From: Saccoglossus kowalevskii
Taxonomy: Eukaryota; Hemichordata; Enteropneusta; Harrimaniidae
Direction of reading: 5' to 3'
Length of the DNA: 64,000 nt
NCBI RefSeq assembly: GCF_000003605.2
Contig: NW_003147275.1
Span: 374,145 to 438,144, forward strand
Position numbers and translations under genes: made by a program. Below, one piece after another: positions 36,835 through 52,378 of the stretch (position 1 is its first letter; each line of letters starts with the position of its first letter). The notes beneath the pieces are model-generated. The model saw only the letters and a program-made list of their open reading frames with translations, made no database searches and was not told where the DNA came from.

Positions 36835-39800
36835 TTACAGAACTATACATGTGTTTGCCCTGGGTTTAAATTGGAATTTTGGACATTTGCATCTGTCTTC
36901 GACAGGTACGTCCTTCAGCACTTCATTAATATGTCGACCAGAGCCTGCAAGTCGAGAAGAAAAGCCTGTTGTGATATTGAAGAGCTTGAGAATGCGGCTT
37001 GGTTTCGTGAAGATCAAGTATATATAATATATAAGAATATAAATATAAAAATATATAAAAACAAATTTAATAAATCGCGCCCTCTAGTGACAATGTCGTT
37101 TAATGGGGGTAGAGAAAACGCAGACATCATCGATATTATAACTGATTATTATACTTCATGGTTACAATACTAAACCGCCTGCAGAACTGAATCAATCGGT
37201 CTATAATAATCATAACTTGTATTTCTGTCATACATTCTGAACGTTTTTCTTCGACAGTTATAGATTTAGACAGATTGTCCTGTACATTCAAACCTCTTTG
37301 GCTGAAAAAAAAACGTTTGGCCTACCCAAAGTTGTATACCGTAGAAGAATCACATCATGATTTATACTAGTGTTGGTGCGTCTGGTGTCACTCAGCACAT
37401 CATTAGCTTTCCTAACATGTGTAGCTTGTTCAGAAATCATTAGGTCACTTGAGCCAACCATTGGATCCTTCTAATCAGTGACCTGCTACAGTAAGTGCCA
37501 CGCAACTTGTGTTTGATTGTTAGTATGATCAAAATGTGCGACTTTGCACTTGTCTTTATTAAAGAACACTAGGAAAACAGCAGGCCAAGACCTGACCTCT
37601 GTGCGACTCCACTATTTACAGTGGACCAACAAGAAGCTATAGCATTCAGCATAACACGCTGAACACTGATGTAACCACAGGAGAGAGCCACTAATGCCAT
37701 GGCCAAGTGTAATGTCTAAGAAGCTTTGTGAAAGTCCAAATAAATAACATCAAATGCTAAACCCGGTTCAATACATTACACTTTGTGAATAATTGGGTCA
37801 GACAAGACGAAACCCATGTGTGAAACAATAAATTATTATGTTCAACATGTTCTAGAGTTGTTCTTTGCATAATAGACTCCATCACCTTGAAGACTACAAA
37901 GGTCAAATTTATTGGTCAGTAGTTATAGTCTGTAGAGACGGTTTTGTGTGATAGCATTACGCCTGTCTGTCTTTGCTCAGCAGGAATCGATCTTTCACTA
38001 ATACAATGTTGCATATCGGTATGGACAATTCAAGGTTTGCAAAACATGGGATTCATTTTGTATCTCTAGAAGATATTAGCAATATCAGAAGCACTGAAAC
38101 ATATTGTTCAATATTGAACAATTAACAAATCATGTCTTTGTTTTTTGTTTGACTTCCGATGTAAGCATTGTCTTTTTTGATGTTACATGTAAATTTATGA
38201 TTGTTTTGTTTCCTGACCTTCCGTGAAGTTATTCAAATTTGTTTTTTTATTTATCAAAGTCACGGCTGTCGTTCCTAATGCGAATATGGCTCACTATTTA
38301 CGCTGCAGCTGTAATAACTTGAGAATTTTGCATATCATCCATTTGGGTTAAATATTATTTTTGTGTCCGATACATATCGGCATATAATTCCGACATTGGT
38401 TGTCTTTAAAATTTTGGGCATATTAAATATTCCCAGATTTGTCTGCATGGCTGACGACACATTGCATTTAAATGACAGCAAAACATAATCACTAACAATA
38501 CTGAAGGAAACAAGGCTAGGGAATCTACTATGGTACCATCGCTTGTGAACTCAAGATCAAGATAAGTTACATAGATAGACAGTAGGTAGACAGGTTCAAT
38601 CAATATCTGGAAATAAAAATCCCTGATGATCAAAACATTTTCTTCTAATCAGATTGTTCAGCTTGATAAGGTCCTCGTCACAAAGTAGAACAGAATTAGA
38701 CCACTGGATAGTGACTCAAATGTAGTCCTCAACATCTTCAATATTTACATCCTTGATAACATGAACTTTTAACTTGTCATTAATATAAAATGTCAGAAAT
38801 GTATCTGACAAGCCGCACAGGTAATGTATATTACAGGCAGAAAACACACCAAAGTGCAGTATAGAATTACTGCACTTTATTAAGCTGATTGTGATTTGTT
38901 CACATAGGTGATCCTATGGAAAATTTTACCAGTTAAATCAAAACTGGTCGCAACTCCATAAAAGGGCATACAATTATAACACCAACCAGACTACACGCTC
39001 ATCAATTACAATAATGCGTGAAGCATATACGTTTTAAGTATGAGCAGTAAAATAAGATCTAGCATTACAAGTTGGTAATGCAACAAATTAGGCCTCAAGA
39101 ACACATCACAAATTAACACGTTCAGACGGTCACTATCTTAGGTAAGTTCAATTGTTCACTTTTCAGCTTCACTATCAATAGTCCACAATTTGAATTCACA
39201 GTATTTCACTCTGACTGCTCTCCGTGCACCATGCGTTACGATGGCTCACCACTCACTGGTCATCTGGACAAGTTTGCATTCCATAATCCCTGCCGTTTTT
39301 AACACAACTGAAGTGACAATATATGAATGTCTTCAACCTGGCTACCATTCACATTACAGTTGAATGAGCTACTCAGAAACGATTACACTGAAATCTCAAC
39401 TGCAAGACCAATTTGAAATACCTCTACTCTATACACTTGGCTGACCTAATACAGTTATCACAGACTCTCACCAACTTAAAGCATGAACACCTTGCTAGTT
39501 GACAGAATGAGTTGAGTAAAATTGCAGGAGATGCTCTCTCTGGACAACTGCCCACATCACACTGTCGAATTGCCCAGCACACTGATCTACTTTGCATCAC
39601 AAAAGCAGTTCCATTCATCACTCCAAGCTACACTAGTAAAATTCTATACACCCACATGTAATTACATACCACCTGTACACTAGTTGCCACTGGGCACCAT
39701 TAAGTAGATGTGAATTGGGTTTATTCAATTAAATTACATTGCTTTTGCAGTACTGTAATCTACATACACAAATTATTAGTCAATATAACAAATAACACCA

Positions 39801-42115
39801 GACTAGTGAATTTTCTGAATGGCATCCATTTAAGCATAGTTCAGATCAATATGCTTCTAGTTTGGCCAATGTTTTTGTTACTGCAAGAATATCGGGCTTA
39901 TTTAGTCCAACCGAAGAATCCAAATTAACAAACTTGTTCATCAAACTTCCAGCGTTTATGAGAAAAGTGGTAAGATACTTCGTACTCCCAGGTTGGTATT
40001 TTTAAAGGTGGATGGCGTCTCTTGTTGATTTCAAAGCATTGAATTTATTTAGCCTTCATCCTGTATTTGCTTGATTTCTCTCAGTCTTCCGTCAATCTTC
40101 CTTTCTGGACGAATCATGTCTGATTTGATGACAATGGCTTTTAATTTTGGATTTTCCATTGAATTTAGTTTCCGATTTCTCAAAATTTGCATTCTTGATC
40201 TGCTGCTTAATACTGCTACTCCTAATGATCTTGGTCCTCCTCTTTTTTGAATCATTGCCATCTATGTCAGTTGCTCTCTCTCTCCAATTCGCCTTGCTTT
40301 CTCAGGAACTAATCCGCTACTATCAACACAACTTATTTGAGAACATTAGCAACGTGTGCACTGTCTTGCTCTACCCTGACTCTAACATCATTATCGTACG
40401 ATTCTTCAATGCCAAATGAAACTAAATTAACCTTTCTTTTTTCTCTAACTTCAACACAAACTTCTTCAACTTCATTGCAAACATTCACAGTACCCATGCT
40501 ATGATGCAGATTAACCATTCTATGATGCAACCATATCAATGGCATAGAGATCTGCTTATTATTTTTGACTACTGATTGTAGCTAACCCTTTGTTTATTTC
40601 TGTTTGTTCCCTTTCCAGCTTGTCAATAGATGGAAATGGAAAATGTCGCATTACATTTCTTGCTATGCAAGCATTTCCTTTGACTAGCAAATCGTACATT
40701 TAAGCATCTATTGATTCGCATGTTCTGTACCAAAAAACTACACATTTCGCACTGCATCGGTGTTTTGGGGGTACCATTGTCCATATTAGAATCTTATGTA
40801 GTTTTTACAAATGCGCCCCCTCCCTCAAGGTACTGTAATCCTTAACAGTCATCTTAAATTATTTTCAGTTTCCCCCACAATACTTGAACAATATCAGAAA
40901 TCTTGAAAATCAGTATGTTCATGTCACTATATAAAACCATAGGATCATATTTAACAAATATAAATTTTCTACACAGTGAAGTTCCTCTTCCATTCGTCTT
41001 ACTCAACATACATAACATTATACGCCACCATGAAAATCCATCAAACTCACTAGAGAAATACCGCAAAACGCTCAAATTACGCGATGACAAAAACACAGAT
41101 TCAAAGCAGGCAGTAACTCTCTGTACATAATAGACCAGTAGCGTCGCTAGTGAAGCGAATTAATCCATAATTCGGTTAAAATACGTTGAACGAAAGCTGA
41201 GTAGACAGTGGATTATTGTAAAATGCATGAACACATTGTTTCCATATCTTGTCGTTCAGTCAATAATACACAACCGAACACAGTTATGGCTGTAATCTCG
41301 TCCACGTAATTTGTACGTCATAAGAACGTGTCGACATATAAGGGTGCGACATAATAAAAAGGTGCATTTCAGGCTATTTTTCTGCCCATTGTAAAACATT
41401 GTTCCTACAGTGAATTGAGTTAGAACCACAATTAAATCGCATGTAAGAAGCATAAACAGTAATGATCCCTCAATCAATTCAGTACTGGTTTCGGGCCCCA
41501 TAATGCACACACGCTGGTCCCTTATAAATATTAATAATCCTCTGGGAATACATCATGGTATATAAATAGATGGACTGTTAAATTTACTGTCCAACTGAGT
41601 GGTCCAATATTACTGGTATAGTAAAAACACTGCTGTTCATACACTTCTTTAAATTATCAACAATGAATTATTTATCTCTCCATCTAAAAGTAATATCACT
41701 ACTCATATAAAATGCAATCAATATCGATATGTTCTACGTCTACATGATTCATTTTGAATTCCCACTGTTCAGTGCATCGATTAATGGGTTATCAATATCG
41801 ATATCGCCATCTTGCATTGGTCTGCTGTGGATTATTTAGTTTGTATATGCTTTTCCAAATCCTTTACTCGTCAGGTAAAAACATTTACTTTTGTAATGGT
41901 ATATATATTACAATGTGTTATGTGATGTTTTCCAATACCACGAACACCCCCTCCTATCCCACCCCGAGAGTATTGTCTGCAAATGTATTTTGAGGAATGA
42001 AACAACTCGTAACGAATGTATCGCCGTAAAATGAAATAAATCACATCATATGCAGTAAATACTTACCCTTGTAACTAGGTTTTTGGCACTTCTCACAAAT
42101 TATTCTCTCGCACAT
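36835..42115 (-). CDS. Small Cys/His zinc-ribbon-like protein, paralogue A (two exons)
   Basis: Exon 1 is 42115-42067 (MCERIICEKCQKPSYK, then G split by donor GTAAGT). Exon 2 is 36944-36835, preceded by cttttcttctcgacttgcag and ending IVL-TAA. The joined protein is 52 aa. It reads C7xxC10 ... G17-S-G-R-H21 ... LKDVPVEDRCKCP ... C49. Compared with the paralogues, the first Cys of the central CGxH motif is Ser18. The intron is 5.1 kb and holds a CR1-like LINE of about 3.2 kb in the same orientation. Without it the intron is close to that of paralogue B. From memory, short hypothetical proteins with CxxC...GCGxH...CxC occur in many organisms, with no function I can name. The distance makes exon pairing less certain. 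Loss of the Cys may mean altered metal binding or a pseudogene. Confidence 0.58.
37370..40545 (-). mobile_element. CR1-like LINE, ORF1-EN-RT, decayed
   Basis: Minus-strand order: ORF1 with a KRKVNLVSFGIEES segment (40450-40400) and VIKSDMIRPERKIDGRLREI (40140-40070), the RRM-like ORF1 end. Then an AP-endonuclease start (LINAGSLMNKFVNL, NKPDILAVTKT, about 39990-39860). Then RT (FDVIYLDFHKAS near 37745; VNSGVAQRSGLGLL near 37600, equivalent to SGVPQGSxLGPLL) and a C-terminal KDKCKVAHFDHTN and HVRKAND segment (37560-37400). Frameshifts and stops throughout. It lies in the intron of the small Cys/His gene A. The clade assignment is by motif memory. Confidence 0.65.
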
Positions 42116-43790
42116 ATTGATGTATTGGTGTGTCGGTGCTTGTAGTAATGCGGTGATCATGTGATGTTGAATGCACTTTCCAGTACGCCCTCACATGTCA
42201 TTTTTGAAAAATAAAGGTTTAAGGACATTAAACCTGCTCATAAATGACATTTTGTAATAAATTATATTCCCAGTCAATATATGGATATTGACTTAAATGA
42301 GTCTTCATCATCGATCAAAGTTTTTTGGACGTCATATGCTATTGATAAATACTCGACCATTTTACTCAAGGTACTGTGTCATACAACAGAAGACCAGTTG
42401 TTCCATGTTACCATGGACCTTCATTGTACACAATAATCATTTATTTTAGACCAATTTTCTTTTACCACAACTGATGTCCAGACCATACTAGTATATGTAA
42501 TTAATACTAGTTATGTAAAGTCTGCGAAGTAAGCGAACGCTATCACCATCATAGCAAACCAGCGAACATGTTTATATTAAATAGATGTAGATTTCAATAA
42601 ATTTGGAAAACAGCGTTCAAAAATTACACAGATTAGAAACAAAATAGCTCTCAACATAGATGATTGTTGATAGGGTCTTCGTGATATATTTATGTTTATT
42701 GTTACAGTAATCTATTTATACTAAGCCAACTAGATCAACAACATAGTAAGTAGATCTACGATTCCCGGCGGATACAAACTACATATACTGTATGTGGAGC
42801 CATACACAAACAAACTGACAACATGCTTAATTCTATAGGTGGCCACATTAGTACAGAAAATAAAACATATACAGTGAGAAAATAATAAATACATAAGGCA
42901 CAGACATGCTACGGTGTCGAATGAGTCTGGGAAGAAGTGTGCAAAATAATATCGTAAATACAATACCAACATCTCACTAATTGAATATGTATTCACTCAG
43001 TGGTTTTCAGCACATCTGAGTAAATGTATGTACAATTAGTTCTAGTGCTACAAAATGATATTCAGACGCAAAATAAATGAATGTAGTATCACATATTGAT
43101 TGGATTGATAACAAAGATCCATGAAAATACTAAAGAATAGTTCATAAATTGTAAGCATCAAATATGCCGCCAATAGGTCAGGTGCGGGTTAGGGTCACGT
43201 GGTATTTTTGTCGTCCTTGTTCGACAATCCTCCAAGTATTTATTTGAAATAACGCCAACTGTAAAAGTTCGACTCATAGCACCGTGTACTGATTAGGCCT
43301 GTTACATTTCGCTTGGCACAGGCACACAAAATGTAAACAAGTCTGATCTATTGCGTGTTTCGTTGTTTTAAAGAGTGACAAATCACATTAGGCACGAATT
43401 AAACAGCTATTTAATTCAATGGTTTTACCATCACGTAAGTTAGTAGGTTTGTTTCCCATAGTTTTACCAGGTCAGTGCTGTTAGAAAGTACCATGTAACA
43501 AAGATCATTAGACGAGTTACTAAGGTGAGAAGGCCATGGTTGCAGTGCCATAGGTAGTGGAAGTAGTATTACACCAGTCCTCATAAAGATCGTCTTGAAC
43601 GAGGTTACATTACTGAACATTTATCTCCTTTCATCTTTAAGTTACGGCATTTACATCTTTCATCCACCGGTACATCCTTTAACACAATTTCAACATGGCA
43701 TCCACAACCTACAACAAAATAAACAGTGTTTTCAAAGCAGAGAGTTGGGAAACGGAAAAGCCATAACCTTATTTTAAGCACGGATGTGGC
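40990..43790. repeat. Segmental duplication, unit 1
   Basis: Collinear with 44160-46720. Landmarks: aatagaccagtag (41128/44280), aaattatcaacaatgaattat (41653/44463), the conserved exon at 42067-42170/44871-44975, atctatttatactaagccaa (42710/45548) and ggtcagtgctgttagaaagta (43470/46387). The offset drifts from about 3.15 to 2.8 kb through indels. This duplication multiplied the small Cys/His gene. Confidence 0.8.
42120..43600. other. Intergenic between paralogues A and B
   Basis: Duplicated non-coding sequence with short frames only. The first 55 bp upstream of exon 1 of paralogue A are identical to the corresponding bases of paralogue B, then similarity falls. This leaves room for 5' UTR and promoter sequence, which I cannot define further. 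Confidence 0.45.
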
Positions 43791-44919
43791 AGGCTAAAAT
43801 TGGACAAACAATCTGACATAAGAAATCCACAAAAAATGGCTTAATCTTATACGAATAGTACAAAAACGTATGCGAGTCAACAGAAAAGCTCAAACATTAC
43901 ATAAAGAGAACAGCGAGGTCGATATTCACATATGGTAGACATCTATATTGCATACAGAGCTGATCTTGGTCGGTATCTACAAATGATGGACAACTATATA
44001 TTGCATACAGAGTTGAGATAGGTCGGTATCTACGTATGTCGGACATATGCATTGCACACAAAGCAGAGCTTGGTCGGTATCTACGTATGGAGGACAACTA
44101 TATTGCAGATAGATCCACACAGTCCTGCAGTCCACAGTCCAGACGTCCAGTAGTAGTACAGCTCCTTTCATACTCAACGTACAAAACATTAGGCGCCATA
44201 ATGAAAGTCCACCAAACTCACTAGCGAACATGAAGTACCGCACAAAACAGCCTCAAAGCAGGCAGTAACTCCCGTAAATAATAGACCAGTAGCATTACTA
44301 CTGAAGAAAAACAATCCATAATTCGGTGGTGAAATTACATTGAATTACACTAAAACAGGACGGTGCTAGATGAGCAGTGGATGATTGTAAAATGCATGAA
44401 CAAATTGTTTCTGTGTCTTTACGTTCAGTCAATAATACACAACCAAGCAATGTATATTCACTAAATTATCAACAATGAATTATATATCTCTCCATCTAAA
44501 AGTATTATCACTACTCATAGAAAATGCTATCAATATCGATATTTTCTACGTCTATGTGATTCATTTTGAATTCCCACTGTTCAGTGCATCGTTTCATGGG
44601 TTATCAATACTGATATCGCCATCTTGCATTGGACTGCTGTGGACTATTTAAGGGACCCAATATTGTAAACTAATGCAAATTCGGCTGTATATACGTTTCC
44701 CGAGCATTTACTCGTCATGTAAAAAAAAAAAAAACATTTCTTTTTCTAATGATATATTTATTACAATATGTAATGAGGTTTTTCACCACCACGCTCCCAT
44801 CCGACCACACCCTGACATATGCCTGCATATGCAGTTCGAGGGATGGGACAACTCAGAAATTAATACTTACCCTTGTAACTGGGTTTTTGGCATTTCTCAC
44901 AAATTATTCTCTCGCACAT
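43605..44919 (-). CDS. Small Cys/His zinc-ribbon-like protein, paralogue B (two exons)
   Basis: Exon 1 is 44919-44871 (MCERIICEKCQKPSYK plus the first base of Gly, donor GTAAGT). Exon 2 is 43708-43605, after tttattttgttgtag, ending KCSVM-TAA. The phase-1 join gives 50 aa: C7xxC10 ... G17-C18-G-C-H21 ... VLKDVPVDERCKC ... C47. Possible metal ligands are C7, C10, C18, H21, C35 and C37. The central motif is CGCH here, against CGRH in paralogue C. Exon 1 differs from that of paralogue A at only two bases, both synonymous. An in-frame upstream ATG 15 codons earlier (start MITALLQAP) is also conserved, but the inner ATG matches the start in paralogue C. The family is not named; the fold is inferred from Cys/His spacing. 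Confidence 0.7.
43946..44104. repeat. Minisatellite of 51-53-bp units
   Basis: The block ggtcggtatctac recurs at 43968, 44021 and 44072 within units starting ttgcatacagagct. The same unit recurs at 46885-46990. It lies in the intron of paralogue B and, in the second site, in the intron of paralogue C. Confidence 0.85.
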
Positions 44920-46720
44920 ATTGATGTATTGGTGTGTCGGTGCTTGTAGTAATGCGGTGATCATGTGATGTTAAATGCACTGTCCAATACACCTACACAT
45001 GGCATTATTGAAAATTAAAGGTTTAACCACAGACCCCCAACACATTAAACCTGCTCATGAATGACATTTTGTAATACATTATATGAATAATGAATTAAAT
45101 AAGTCTGGGGTCATCGGTCGAATTTACTTTCACCTCGTATTGCATAGATAAATATTCGACCAGTTTTCTCAAGGTACTGTGTCACATCGCAGAAGGTTAG
45201 TTGTTCCATGTTACCATTGTACATAAAAGTCATTTTTTTTAGATCAATTCACTTCTACTCTAACTGATGTCCAGGCCATATATCGCATGTAAATTTTCAC
45301 TAATACTAGCTTATGTAAAGTCAAAAAATGGCAGCGTTCTAATAAGTATACTCGTGTTCGAAGTGAGCGAACGTTATCACCATCATGGAAAAACAGCGAA
45401 CATGTTTATTCTAAATAGATGCAAGTTTCAATAAAATTGACAAACAGCGTTTGGAAATGTTCACAGATTAAAAACAAAACAACTCCTAACATAGATGATC
45501 GTTGACCGGGTCTCCGTGATATATTTATGTTTATTGTTACAGTAATCTATTTATACTAAGCCAAGTAGATCAACAACATATTAAGCAGATCTACGATTGC
45601 CGGTGGATATACACTGGATAGACTGTATGTAACGCCATACACAAACAAACTGACAAAATGCTTAATTCTTAGTGCAGAAAACAACACATATACAGAAGGA
45701 CAATAATAAATACATAAAGCACAAATACGCTGCGGTGTCAAATTTTAGATTGAGAAGAAGTGTGCACACAATACCAACACCTCACTATTAGAATATGTAT
45801 TCACTCAATGGTTTTCAGCTACAAAATTATATTCAGAGGCAAAATAACATGGCAATAATTATTCGATTACTGTATTCGTCATTTTCATATAGTGCATGTC
45901 GTTATCAATATAGTCATACTGTATACCTGTTTTATGAATGTAGTGTCACACATTGATTGGATATGTTAGTAACAGAGATACATTAAAAAAAATAAAAAAA
46001 TCATGAATAGTAAATTGTAAGTATTAAACATGCCGCCAATAGGCCACGTCCTCGTCCTTGCTCTATCATCCAAGTATTCTTTTGAAATAACGGCAACTCA
46101 TAGCACCGCAAACTTTTTAGGTTTGTTACATTCCACCGGATTTCTTGAAAATAAAAATTGCCTGAGCTATTGCGTGGTTCGTTGTTTTCAAGACAGAAAA
46201 ATCACATAAGGCACGATTTAAACAGATATTTAAATGATTGGTTAGTTGAATGATTGATTGATTGATTGATTTTACTATCACTTTAATAAATTGGTAAGTA
46301 TCGATGGCTGTATTTTTGAAGAGGACGATATGCATGTATTCTAGTACAACAAACAACTGCTTTACAAGTTTCCCATAGTTTAACCAGGTCAGTGCTGTTA
46401 GAAAGTACGATCGTTAGACGAGCTGCCAAGGTGGGAAGGCCATGGTTGCAGTGCCACGGCTAGTGGAAGCTACGCCAGTCTTCATAAAAATGGCCTTGAC
46501 CGGGGTTACATTACTGAACATCTAGCTCCTTTCATCTCGCGACATTTACATCTTTCATCTACCGGTACATCCTTTAACACAATTTCAACATGACGTCCAC
46601 AACCTGCAACAAAATAGTAATAAAAAAGAAATTTTAAAGCAGAGAATTGGGAAACCGAAAATTCTGAATAATATTTTAACCAGGGATGTGGTAAGCTAGA
46701 ATTAGACAAACAATCTGACG
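44160..46720. repeat. Segmental duplication, unit 2
   Basis: Second unit of the direct duplication described for 40990-43790. It includes exon 1 of paralogue B and, at its right end, exon 2 of paralogue C. Flanking minisatellite copies also match (43.95 and 46.9 kb). Confidence 0.8.
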
Positions 46721-47304
46721 TAAGCACCCCACATATAATATGGCCTAACCCTATATGAATATTACAAAAACTTATGCGAGTCAACAGAAAATCATTGCAT
46801 ACAGAGACCAGCGAGGTCCATATTCAGGTATGGTATATTCGCTGGGCTAAGTTTGTATCTACCGTGACGCATGGGGGGGGGGGGGGGGACTGTATTGCAT
46901 ACAGAGCTAACCTTGGTCGGTATCTACGAATGGTGGACAACTATATTGCATACAGAGCTAACCTTGGTCGGTACTACAAATGGGGACAACTATATTGCAA
47001 CAGCTTAGCTTGTGTAACCTCAGACAACCAATACAATTCTATTATATTCCGTTCTGTTCTCTGTCCAGTATTGTACTATAGAACGACTTAGATTGTATCA
47101 TGAACCTATTTTGCTATTCTATCGTATGTATGACGTGCTTGTGAGAAAACGTAATAATCAAATAATGACTGTATACATGCGTGCATTCACACTTGGTCCT
47201 TTACTACGCTATATCTATATGTGGACCAGGATTCTGGCTTCCCTGCAATACTCACCCCAGTATGTCGGCTTTTTGCAAGTTCCACAGCTGGTTCTATGAC
47301 ACAT
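46506..47304 (-). CDS. Small Cys/His zinc-ribbon-like protein, paralogue C (two exons)
   Basis: Exon 1 is 47304-47256: MCHRTSCGTCKKPTYW plus the first base of Gly, then donor GTGAGT. Exon 2 is 46603-46506, after ctattttgttgcag, ending RCSVM-TAA. The phase-1 join gives 48 aa with the clearest motif set: C7xxC10, KPTYWGCGRH (12-21), VLKDVPVDERCKC (25-37), C45. This is the copy closest to the pattern I recall in small unnamed proteins of other organisms (CxxCxKPTWxGCGxH...RCxC). It is likely a compact zinc-binding protein; partners and role are unknown. Upstream is a promoter-like patch and then a LINE. It is the most intact of the three paralogues by motif. Too short for ordinary gene finders, because neither exon is open for long. 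Confidence 0.74.
46873..46888. repeat. Poly-G run (16)
   Basis: Uninterrupted G run inside the intron of paralogue C. Length may be unreliable in sequencing. Confidence 0.9.
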
Positions 47305-47459: not shown

Positions 47460-49197
47460 CGTAAGTAAAGTAAGTAAATAACTTTATTGATTTCGTATCC
47501 TTATTGGAATCTTGAAAATAATACAATAAAGAATGTTGTTTAAATAAACAACAGCTAGCTAAAAAAGTAACTAAAGTAAACAATTAGAAAATTAGATCAA
47601 TAAGTAAAACAAAAATATAAAATACAAGAAATGTAAAATTGAATGATTCTTTTGGGGCAGCTGGTGGTTTTTTCAGTGCACTATCTCTGCGGTTAAAGCA
47701 GTTTTCGGTAATCTGTAGGTTTTAAGTGTGTTTTTATGACTTTTTAGATTTATTGTCATCATACATGCTGTTTTCAGCGACTGTTTAATGAGTCTATCTA
47801 AAATTAGATGAAGGAGACTGTAATTGCTGTTATGTTTACATTGTGTCCATGCGTCACCAAGGTCTAGAAAGTTTAGAATGGTTTTTATTCCTGTTACCCA
47901 ATTTTGTACGCCTGCATCATCTAGCTGTATGCCCAGCTGGTAAGCTTCATGAACTAATGTATTATGATCCATGTCATTTAATCGCATCCAATATTTCAGC
48001 ATTTGCTTTATACTTGAGATGGCAAGTGGAAGTCTACCAAGCTCAAGCAAGCTTGCTAAATTTGTTGCTGTTTACTTTTAATAAGGACTTGCTGAATTTA
48101 ATATGTAATTTTTCAATGGGTGATTTGAGATTTGTCAAGAAGCTTCCTTTGTTAATAATGCAATCGGACCAAATTTCACTACAGTACAGCAGAATTGGTT
48201 TGATCATTGCATTTCTACTAGAATTTAGTTTTCGGAGAACAGCATTTGGTTCATTTTGAAGCATGCTTTCATGGCTCTATTTTTGAGATCTTCTTCGGCT
48301 TTATCAAGTTTGCCTGTTGTGTTTAATTTCATTCCCAAATATGTATAAGAGGGTGTTATTTCCAGCTCTGCCCCATTAAGAATGAAGTCAGATTTGTTAA
48401 TTTTTTTCCAGACTCATTGAAAATCATAATTTTGGATTTATTTATATTAATGTCTAATTTTCATTTTCGGCAGTATACTTCCATGGACTGAATGGCATTT
48501 TTTGGTTTGGTCTCTGAGAGAAGCAGAAGATCATCTGCAAACATCAGACATGGTAGACTTTTGTTGAGTAAAGTTGGTGGTTCGTTGCCAGAGTTGTTTA
48601 TGTGATTTTTTATGTCATTAACATATATATTAAACAACACTGGACACTCCCATCACCCTGTCGTATGCCTTTTTGAATTGGAAAGGTGTTTGTTATATTA
48701 TGATTTATCTTTACTGCACCTAATGAGTTTTGGTACATAGAATTAATTATTTTATAGAATTTACCTGTAATGCCGTTCATGATGAGTTTTTGTAACAGAC
48801 CTTCATGCCAAACAGAATCGAAAGCTTTCTGAAAGTCAATAAAGCATGCATATATTTTTTTTCCTTGACTGAAATATTTTTTAAGGAGTTGTTTTAGAAC
48901 AAATATGTGATCTTCTGGTCTAAACGTGGGCATAAAGCCAATTTGTTCTTTAATAATTATATCTTTTTCTTGTAGGTGATTTGCTAATCTTTGTTTTAAT
49001 ACAGAAATGAACAATTTGTTTAATGTATTCAGAAGGGTAATACCTCGATAGTTACCAGGATCATTTTTATCTCCCTTCTTGAAGACCGGAGTAATAATTC
49101 CCAAATTCCAGCTACTAGGGAAGTGACCAGATGACAAGATCATGTTGAACAGTTTTTGAATAGACTGGACTAATGTATTATAAGCAGGTTGTAGCAC
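47460..49197 (-). mobile_element. 5'-truncated LINE (RT and 3' end)
   Basis: The minus frame 49197-48610 is an RT: NYRGITLLNTLNKLF, FIDFQKAFDSVWHEGLLQKL and IRQGD. After a frameshift come MFADDLLLLSETKPKN near 48530 (the FADD catalytic box) and a C-terminal region (YCSEIWSD near 48170; GRLPLAISSIKQMLKYWMRL near 48035). The 3' end is a short TTAC-type repeat (47460-47490). The copy is truncated at about 49197 before the endonuclease. Broken by frameshifts. It lies immediately upstream of the promoter of paralogue C. Confidence 0.85.
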
Positions 49198-49619
49198 TGT
49201 CGGCTGACGTTAAGTCGACCGATATAGTTGCCAATATGCTAATTGATGAAATCTAGAAATACTAGTTAGACATTTACTATTTCAACCTCAATCAACTGGA
49301 AACGCATGTAGAGATGTGTATGTGTGAATATTTATTTACACCAAGCACTGCGCTTACAGTCGACTCAACATCAGAGCACATATGTGGTTAGAAGAACATT
49401 ACCCTCATCAGTTCGATAGTTAAAGGCGCCCTATAACTGACCGGAGTATTGTTGCACGGGTCTGTTGAACATCTATTTTCTAAACAGTGGAAATATCACG
49501 ATTCGACTCAGAAGATCCCTCTGCCTATTTTAGAACATAATAAAAATGCTTGTTTAGAAAATAATTCACAAATAAAAGAGTGTTTACCTGTGTACCTGTT
49601 CTGTAGACAACAACATTGT

Positions 49620-50520
49620 GTAGTGCATGTATCATATATGATGCATTTACCTTGTCATGTGCATTTACCTTATGTAAGGCATTATCATATTATGCAGTGT
49701 ATTTATCATGTTGTGTGGTGCATTTACCTTGTTATGTAGTGTGTTCATCATATTATGTAGTGCATTTATCGTATTATGTAGTACATTCATCATATTATGT
49801 AGTGAATTCATCATGCTATGTAGTACATTTATCATATTAGGTGATGCATTTATCTTGGTATGTATTGCATTCATCATATTATGTGGTGCAGTTACCTTAT
49901 TATGTAGTGCAATTACGTGATCATGTAGTTCATTTATCATATTTGGTGCATTTACCTTGTTATGTAGTGCATTTATCATGTTATGAGGTACATTTATCTT
50001 ATGTAGTACATTATCATATTATGTGGTGCATTTGTCGTATTATGTGGTGCATTTACCTTGCTTTGTAGTTCATTCATCATATCATGTGGTGCATTTACCT
50101 TGTTATGTCGTGTATTCATCATATTATGTAGTGCATTTATCGTATTATGTAGTACATTTACCTTGCTTTGTAGTGCATTTATCTTGGTATGTATTGCATT
50201 CATCATATTATGTGGTGCATTTGCCTTATGTGGTGCATTCATCATATTACGTAGTGCATTCATCATATTATGTAGTGCATTCATCATATTATGTAGTGCA
50301 TTCATCATGTTATGTAGTGCATTCATCATATTATGTAGTGCATTCATCATATTATGTAGTGCATGTACATGATTGTGTAGTGTATTTATCATATTATGTA
50401 CTGCATCCATCATATTATGTGCTGCACTTACCTTGTTATGTATTGCATTCATCATATTATGTTGTGCATGTACATTGTTATATAGTGAATTCGTCATGTT
50501 ATGTTTTGCATTTATCATTG
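49620..50520. repeat. 21-bp minisatellite
   Basis: Units of the type gtagtgcattcatcatattat, about 21 bp, are repeated over some 900 bp with variants. The stretch 50240-50360 is almost perfect. Because 21 is a multiple of three and the unit lacks stops, both strands stay open: minus heptads of the type MMNALHN, plus VVHSSYY. I regard these as by-products, not a gene. Confidence 0.92.
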
Positions 50521-50639
50521 TTAGTGGCTATTCAAAAGTTGTTTAGTTGTGTATATCAATGAATTATCGAGGGAAATGAAGCCAGAGTGAATGATAAAAC
50601 TGTGCAATGACATGATAGGAATGAAGACCCAAACGTAGA

Positions 50640-52378
50640 GTGGAGCGATAGGGACCAAGAGATAAGGTGTGAATGGTGGTGAAGCAATGCAGGAGAGATG
50701 TGAAGATAAAAGGGTCAAGAGATAAGGTACTAATGGGGTTGACGGGATACAGGAGGAGAGTCAAGTGGACGGGTCATAAGATAAGGTACCAATGGGGTTT
50801 AAGCGATACAAGATCGAAGTAAAGAGGTCAGGAGATAAGGTAATAATGGGGATAAGGCGATACATGAGGGGAGTGAAAAGAAAGAGGTCAAGAGATAAGG
50901 TACCAATGGGGTTTAAGCGATACAGGATGGGAGTGAAGAGAAAGGTGTCGGGAGATAAGGTACTAATGGAGGTGCAGCAATACAGGATGGTAGTGAAGAG
51001 AAAGAGGTCAAGAGGTAAAGTACTAATGGGAGTGAAGCAATACAGGAAGAGAGTGAGCAGAAAGGGACAAAATATAAGGAACTAATAGGGTTGACATAAT
51101 ACCAGATGAAAGTGAAGAGAAAGGTGTCAGGAGATAAGGTACCAATGGGGTTTAAGCGATACAATATGGAAGTAAAGAGGTCGAGAGATACTGTACTAAT
51201 TGGGTTTAAGCGAGGGGAAGAAAGGGTCAAAAGATAAGGTACGGTAAATTTGGCTGAAGTGATGCAGAAAGGGAGTGAAGGGAAAGAGGTAAATAGATAA
51301 GGTACTAATGGGAGTGAAGCAATATAGGAGGGAAGTAAAGAGAGAGAGAGAGAGAGAGAGATAAGGTACTAATGGGAGTGAAGCAATACAGGCTGGAAGT
51401 AAAGAAAGAGAGGTCAAAAGATGATGTACTAATGGGGTTGAAGTAATACAGGATGGTGGTGAAGAGAAAGAGGTCAAGAGGTAAGGTACTAATGGGGTTT
51501 AAGCGATACAGGGTGGAAGAGGTCAAGAGATAAGGTACTAATGGGAGTAAAACGTTACAGGATGGAAGTGAAAAGAAAGGGGTTAAGAGATAAGGTATTA
51601 ATGGGGTTGAAGCAATACAGGAAGGGAGTGAAGAGAAAGGGGTGAAGAAATAAGGTATTAATAGGGTTGAAGCAATACAGGAAAAGAGTGAAGAGAAAGG
51701 GGTGAAGAGATAAGGTACTAATGGGGTTGAAGTGATACATGAGGGGAGTGAAGAGAAAGGGGTCAAGAGATAAGGAACTAATGGGGTTGAAGTGATGCAG
51801 GAGGGGAGTGAAGAGAAAGGGGTGAAGAGATCAGATACTAACTGGGTTGAAGTGATGCAGAAGGGGAGTGAAGCGAAAGGGGTGAAGAGACCAGGTACTA
51901 ACAGGGATGAAGTGATGCAGGAGGAGAGTGAAGATAAAGGGGTCAAGAGATAAGGTACTAATGGGGTTGAAGTGATGCAGGAGGGGAGTGAAGAGAAAGG
52001 GGTCAAGAGATAAGGTACTAATGGGGTTGAAGTGATGCAGGAGGGGAGTGAAGAGAAAGGGGTGAAGAGATCAGATACTAACTGGGTTGAAGTGATGCAG
52101 AAGGGGAGTGAAGCGAAAGGGGTGAAGAGACCAGGTACTAACTGGGTTGAAGTGATGCAGAAGGGGAGTGAAGAGAAAGGAGTGAAAAGACCAGGTACTA
52201 ATGGGGTTGAAGTGATGCAGAAGGGGAGTGAAGAGAAAGGGGTCAAGAGATAAGGAACTAATGGGGTTGAAGTGATGCAGAAGGGGAGTGAAGCGAAAAG
52301 GGTGAAGAGACCAGGTACTAACGGGGATGAAGTGATGCAGGAGGAGAGTGAAGATAAAGGGGGTCAAAAGGTAAGGTA
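50640..52378. repeat. 60-bp purine-rich minisatellite
   Basis: Units such as ggggttgaagtgatgcagga, continuing through a gagtgaagagaaagg block and ending ataaggtacta, recur every 60 bp. The period is exact from 51721 to 52380; the left half is more degenerate. A strong purine strand bias gives long open frames on the minus strand, which are not genes. An (AG)n tract lies at 51340-51361. A stray unit lies at 52571-52606. Confidence 0.95.

Follow-up and report, generated by a model that had tools for sequence, protein, structure and literature searches.

Three very small cysteine- and histidine-containing proteins, each encoded in two pieces, can be read from a 64,000-nucleotide stretch of Saccoglossus kowalevskii DNA (the window). 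The locus raises the question of whether these are real genes, and if so, to what family they belong and what that family does. A preliminary description had proposed three two-exon loci on the minus strand, and re-reading the window sequence bore out both their coordinates and their predicted products of 48 (A), 50 (B), and 52 aa (C). Gene A consists of exon 1 at 47304-47256 (minus strand, 49 nt), which encodes MCHRTSCGTCKKPTYW plus the first base of a Gly codon, and exon 2 at 46603-46506 (minus strand, stop included). Gene B has its exons at 44919-44871 and 43708-43605 (minus strand, stop included), and gene C at 42115-42067 (49 nt) and 36944-36835 (minus strand, stop included), with a 5.1 kb intron between them. 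Exon 1 is 49 bases long in all three and is followed by a phase-1 intron inside one Gly codon, as had been claimed.

The splice signals, GT(G/A)AGT donors and TTG(C/T)AG acceptors, are likewise conserved in all three loci, as the preliminary description had it. The donors are GTGAGT in A and GTAAGT in B and C, and the acceptors are TTGCAG in A and C and TTGTAG in B; exon 2 then begins with GTTGTGG in A and B and with GCTCTGG in C. Against the consensus, the donors score 7-8 of 9, a score equalled by 0.8-3.7% of all GT dinucleotides on the same strand. Read without splicing, the frames reach a stop after 29 (A), 19 (B), and 24 (C) codons. The first AATAAA or ATTAAA lies ~190-235 bases past the stop in each gene. 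Exons of 49 and ~100 bases explain how such genes could escape routine gene calling.

Independent evidence comes from a profile HMM of 88 bacterial-side sequences, built with the window sequences left out and searched against all six reading frames of the window. It recovers exactly the six exons, on the correct strand and split at residue 17, with E values of 1.1e-10 to 5.2e-5. The three second exons score 38.6 (gene A), 33.9, and 31.3 bits and the three first exons 25.4, 24.4, and 20.5 (gene A) bits, against 10.6 bits for the next match in the window and 6.3-10.3 bits in five shuffled windows. No further copy was found in the window by the HMM on six frames or, among the matches listed, by tblastn.

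A fourth gene lies elsewhere in the genome. Searching the source assembly (572,110,611 bases, 4,830 contigs) with protein A gave five matches: four fall in the window and the fifth on contig C685. The first exons of genes B and C escaped this search, and since two known exons were missed, further copies may be missed too. The match on C685 represents exon 2 of a gene, D, that is unlinked to the array. Its exon 1 sits ~1.4 kb upstream, is exactly 49 bases long, and is followed by GTAAGC, with an intron position identical to that of A, B, and C. The two exons match the bacterial-side profile at 48.2 and 21.3 bits. The 40-aa product, MCFKVVCDKCKKFTWKGCGNHVARVLKDVPENERCKCPRK, fits the family pattern (Cys2, C7xxC10, G17-x-G19-x-H21, C35, C37 or H38); it has neither the tail nor the CaaX box of the array proteins and ends in CPRK. 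Because an unlinked gene shares the exon 1 length and the intron position, the intron must predate the array.

Blastn self-comparison bears out the proposed local duplication, resolving two tandem units at 40997-44107, with exon 1 of C and exon 2 of B, and 44168-46999, with exon 1 of B and exon 2 of A. The units match in four pieces that are 67-75% identical with gaps counted. The piece carrying exon 1 of B and C spans 1.4 kb and is 85% identical with gaps excluded; the exons themselves agree at 47 of 49 positions, and both changes are synonymous. The piece carrying the homologous second exons of A and B is 80% identical overall, and these exons differ by eight nucleotide changes (three silent, five in changed codons) and a 6-base indel. 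Sliding windows as identical as the exon numbered 17 of 187 for exon 1 and 0 of 77 for exon 2. Exon 1 of B descends with that of C and exon 2 of B with that of A, which makes B a hybrid. Judged from these alignments, gene B is a recombinant with a C-like exon 1 and an A-like exon 2, most simply produced when an A-like and a C-like gene underwent unequal crossing-over between their introns; the common phase-1 intron would have kept the hybrid in frame.

The 53 bases upstream of B exon 1 (44920-44972, minus strand) are identical to 42116-42168 upstream of C exon 1 and hold TCACATGATCACCG. They may be a shared promoter or 5′ UTR. Their conservation exceeds that of exon 1, so they are likely to reflect a control element or local gene conversion, and the identity of exon 1 by itself is no proof of coding constraint. 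One could also argue from the five of eight A/B exon 2 changes that fall in amino-acid-changing codons that the loci are chance open frames or decayed duplicates. The synonymous nature of both B/C exon 1 changes, the independent HMM, the unlinked gene D, and the splice sites all speak against this reading, which we consider extremely improbable, in line with the earlier judgment that chance was unlikely. Genes A, B, and C, with their predicted splice junctions, are almost certainly real split genes of one family.

Other repeats occur in and around the array. The B intron contains tandem units of ~104-116 bases that have counterparts in the A intron (43896-44113 and 46891-46995). A LINE-like reverse transcriptase fragment (RVT_1, E 5.3e-17) lies at 48613-49209 on the minus strand, ~1.3 kb upstream of A. 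Long open frames at 49987-50562 and 51305-52363 encode short repeats (YYVVHSS-like and SLPSCITSTPLVPYLLTPF-like) and are probably minisatellite DNA.

The suggestion that similar small proteins exist elsewhere proved correct. On plasmids, tblastn gave 76 records with E values of no more than 1, the best being 4e-7, and a bacterial genome scan found at least 556 relatives among 593 candidate stretches, of which the best 80 loci are used in the counts below. Judged by record title, Actinomycetota make up most of these 80, joined by Myxococcota, Acidobacteriota, Eisenbacteria, and one Proteobacteria MAG. The highest identity to protein A among them is 69% over 39 aa, in a Myxococcales locus (L010). 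We almost certainly see here, from sequence comparison, an ancient mini-protein family, mostly of 40-60 aa, common to bacteria and at least one eukaryote. A tree on 38 columns groups A, B, and C together (95/88) and places the trio in an open fork of 25 rows that includes Myxococcota, Eisenbacteria, and actinobacterial rows; it is poorly resolved, and we draw no conclusion from it on origin.

Conservation was read from 91 aligned sequences (80 genome, seven plasmid, one phage record, and three from the window). C2, C7, C10, G17, G19, H21, and C35 are present in 91/91. C18 is present in 90/91. C37 occurs in 77/91, H38 in 13/91, and both in 1/91, and no sequence lacks both. Proteins A, B, and C carry all core family positions; beyond these, C has Ser at C18, the sole exception in the alignment. 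The alternation between C37 and H38 is as expected of a metal ligand able to come from either place and, together with the invariant Cys and His residues, suggests that the family binds Zn. The fixed Cys2 (91/91) also fits a sensor in which the Cys exposed after Met removal is oxidized or persulfidated and so controls protein stability, as in Cys N-degron proteins. Cys2 is just as fixed in bacteria, however, and the Cys N-degron pathway is not known there; a metal or chemical role for Cys2 is thus simpler, and we regard the degron-type sensor as quite unlikely.

Known families offered no home for these proteins. No Pfam or NCBIfam model scored above its curated cut-off for A, B, or C, nor did any Pfam model for six bacterial-side proteins. 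Library matches from 63 aligned members were weak (best E 0.008 in Pfam and 0.0062 in NCBIfam), and against PDB sequences the family profile reached no better than E 0.48. Two short NCBIfam families share the CxxC and match weakly: FmdB (TIGR02605; one of 63 members, best E 0.65) and YnfU (NF038384; two of 63, best E 0.018). We dismissed PF09170 (STN1_2) as a chance match (E 0.0065 for B and 0.13 for C; 16.8 bits over 28 residues versus a cut-off of 27.2), and zf-C5HC2 in Pfam fell below cut-off. Viral origin was also rejected: two scans of viral contigs turned up no relative, and PHROG matches were weak (E 0.099 and 0.17). The one phage record, L008 (“Bacteriophage sp.”), is unverified, has matches to persulfide dioxygenase (PDO), rhodanese, and TauE, and is probably bacterial DNA. 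A structure model of one bacterial homologue was of modest quality (pLDDT 74.5 and pTM 0.45), with a helix at 52-58. Literature searches by sequence string found no paper, and those by topic brought up, among the papers listed, no description of the family. That a core of ~40 residues extends from Actinomycetota to a eukaryote and yet has no family entry in the searched libraries marks a genuine gap in annotation.

Outside the core, the array proteins and their bacterial relatives part company. The “late Cys” of the preliminary description is indeed there, standing fourth from the C-terminal end of A, B, and C, and it is the Cys of a CaaX box: each protein ends in Cys-a-a-X with an aliphatic a2 (CSVM in A, where the tail reads GARCSVM, CSVM in B, and CIVL in C). 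A Cys after residue 38 is present in 3/3 window proteins, which amount to two independent cases since A and B share their end by descent, versus 0/88 bacterial-side sequences, 73 of which have at least 12 tail residues. CSVM suits farnesyltransferase and CIVL suits geranylgeranyltransferase, and the array proteins are predicted to be prenylated at this Cys. In bacterial-side proteins of at least 52 aa, the last 12 residues are 28% W/F/L versus 2% in the linker, and 20% Arg versus 13%. An amphipathic helix in the bacterial tails was not upheld, as the hydrophobic moment is weak (mean z 0.62, 73/88), and we keep only the predicted helix at 52-58. The bacterial tails and the eukaryotic CaaX might be two different means of membrane contact, an attractive but unproved idea.

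Gene linkage in bacteria offers a testable role in reactive-sulfur biology. Seven plasmid loci carry MBL-fold hydrolase, rhodanese, DsrE, TauE/SafE, thioredoxin, DUF302, and CsoR-type neighbours in varying sets; of these kinds, plasmid locus L003 has DsbA and MMPL/MmpS only. For the best 80 genome loci, we ran tblastn with annotated genes and compared matches within 2 kb of the small gene (near) to those at 3.5-6 kb (far); clustering of neighbouring ORFs had been swamped by antisense frames. With queries from plasmid loci only, PDO (CstB/ETHE1-type) was found near in 23/80 loci versus 6 far (P = 0.001), CsoR-type genes in 18/80 versus 3 (P = 0.0008), and thioredoxin in 8/80 versus 1 (P = 0.02); these P values are modest, the query families were picked after the neighbours were viewed, and the 80 loci include the near-duplicates L035/L036 and L070/L075. 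Queries drawn partly from the 80 loci, which count themselves, gave rhodanese 22 near versus 7 far, which is no independent count since PDO itself includes a rhodanese domain, TauE 10/80 versus 3 (P = 0.06), and MMPL 4 versus 1. Those drawn wholly from the 80 loci, which likewise count themselves, gave YeeE 10/80 versus 0 (P = 0.001), the controls ABC ATPase 4 versus 4 and SDR 2 versus 3, and LuxR-type regulator 0 versus 4. DUF302 stood at 4 near versus 0 far.

PDO lies within 320 bp of the small gene in 17/80 loci, 14 of them on the same strand; it is 170 bp away in Streptomyces griseofuscus DSM 40191 (L088), and 618 bp away in an Amycolatopsis locus (L016) whose small protein is 68% identical to A over 37 aa. 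In 15 genomes chosen from those behind the 80 loci (103.7 Mb), there were 24 PDO matches at E 1e-40, a strict threshold because genome G008 gave none although PDO is matched locally at its locus L055. This background predicts 0.12 near cases, or 1.2 at a tenfold rate for the looser local threshold; 23 were observed. The small gene is statistically linked to PDO-rhodanese, thioredoxin, and CsoR-family genes, a linkage confined to some of the bacterial loci; the eukaryotic genes do not lie in operons. In four loci (L006, L056, L058, and L065), the small gene occurs twice, with a thioredoxin match between the copies and then PDO, a Microbacteriaceae-type order.

The hydrolase of plasmid locus L004 matches PDB 3tp9 (beta-lactamase and rhodanese domain protein), 3r2u (which we take to be CstB), BpPRF, and ETHE1 (4chl), and is ~38% identical to plasmid genes annotated cstB. 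Actinobacterial hypothetical proteins encoded beside CstB-type PDO (e.g. WP_085990432.1, Rhodococcus pDK1) have the same MC, CxxC, GCGxH, and RCxC as the array proteins but no intron, a W/F/L/R-rich tail or none, and no CaaX. TusA/CstA-type carriers are likewise small and persulfide-handling, and are encoded with CstB, CstR, and TauE. Their fold and their Cys-Pro-x-Pro motif are unlike the sequence of A, B, and C; we use them as a possible working analogy and claim no membership.

CsoR-type matches occur in 32 of 88 loci, from which 27 open frames were recovered. All 27 proteins have Gly or Ala at the His of HxxxC, the copper-sensor motif (PMC4528141), and copper regulation is disfavoured by this missing copper-site His. 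The first one listed has Cys-x28-Cys, equal in spacing to the Cys31/Cys60 pair of CstR (PMC9774590). In S. coelicolor, a sulfane-sulfur circuit of CsoR, PDO, TauE, and rhodanese has been tested (PMC7533328).

We compared plasmid records by hand (60 of 115 PDO records, and 40 of 76 and 60 of 78 small-gene records). At least 18, among the matches listed, carry both PDO and the small gene: of these 18, six have the genes 153-241 bp apart and 11 are Rhodococcus plasmids of one arrangement, at 5.25-5.42 kb. In CP072877, the best-ranked PDO place is elsewhere, and an annotated MBL-fold gene lies 41 bp from the small gene. Direct adjacency to PDO in 17/80 genome loci and an all-Cys/His ligand set would also suit a Zn or Fe chaperone, or a maturation factor, that serves the MBL-fold dioxygenase and comparable metal enzymes, in place of a sulfur carrier. 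Thioredoxin, YeeE, and CsoR-type neighbours without the copper His point to sulfur rather than to one enzyme, however, and listed PDO plasmids of several genera do without the small gene; the Staphylococcus and Deinococcus ones are absent from the 76 small-gene records, among the matches listed. We hold the chaperone reading to be improbable.

The linkage is far from universal: 29/80 loci have no queried sulfur or thiol gene within 2 kb, and PDO matches are missing from the five Myxococcota loci, which count among the nearest relatives. The sulfur linkage may then be a habit of some Actinomycetota and the protein a small zinc-finger adaptor whose eukaryotic role is unrelated, such as CaaX-anchored scaffolding; the W/F/L/R-rich bacterial tails and the CaaX ends do suggest targeting. 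Against this stand the five invariant Cys/His positions and the thioredoxin neighbours found also in Myxococcota (L010, L046, and L048) and Eisenbacteria (L013). Of the remaining Myxococcota loci, L011 has a DUF302 neighbour and L009 none of PDO, thioredoxin, or DUF302. We think the adaptor possible but doubtful.

The reading we prefer, at a probability of roughly 0.45, is a zinc-thiolate mini-protein for handling or sensing sulfane sulfur, with a CaaX box that would tether the array proteins and a gene B formed by crossing-over; its Zn, sulfur, prenylation, and tethering parts are inferred, and the sulfur role of the family stands at about even odds. Cys2 would be exposed if Met is removed, and Cys2, the C7xxC10 knuckle, C18/H21, and C35/(C37 or H38) would provide the Zn ligands. 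A reactive thiolate would accept sulfane sulfur (RSSH or polysulfide), which would be passed to PDO, rhodanese, or thioredoxin, or its level signalled. A farnesyl (CSVM) or geranylgeranyl (CIVL) group would tether the array proteins to membranes, and the gene D protein, lacking CaaX, would be soluble. The CaaX tail suggests a transfer of the sulfur role to membranes in a eukaryote; the fuller proposal, in which an unnamed family of sulfane-sulfur carriers or sensors gained a CaaX on its bacterial-type core in a eukaryote and so came to handle persulfide at the membrane, is a tentative one that we would not bet on.

A longer version of the bacterial protein, of ~76-99 aa, is encoded in ten loci that are Streptomyces by title (L017, L022, L050, L051, L052, L057, L059, L069, L078, and L087). 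In these ten long-tailed loci, a YeeE-like gene lies 0.9-1.1 kb from the small gene.
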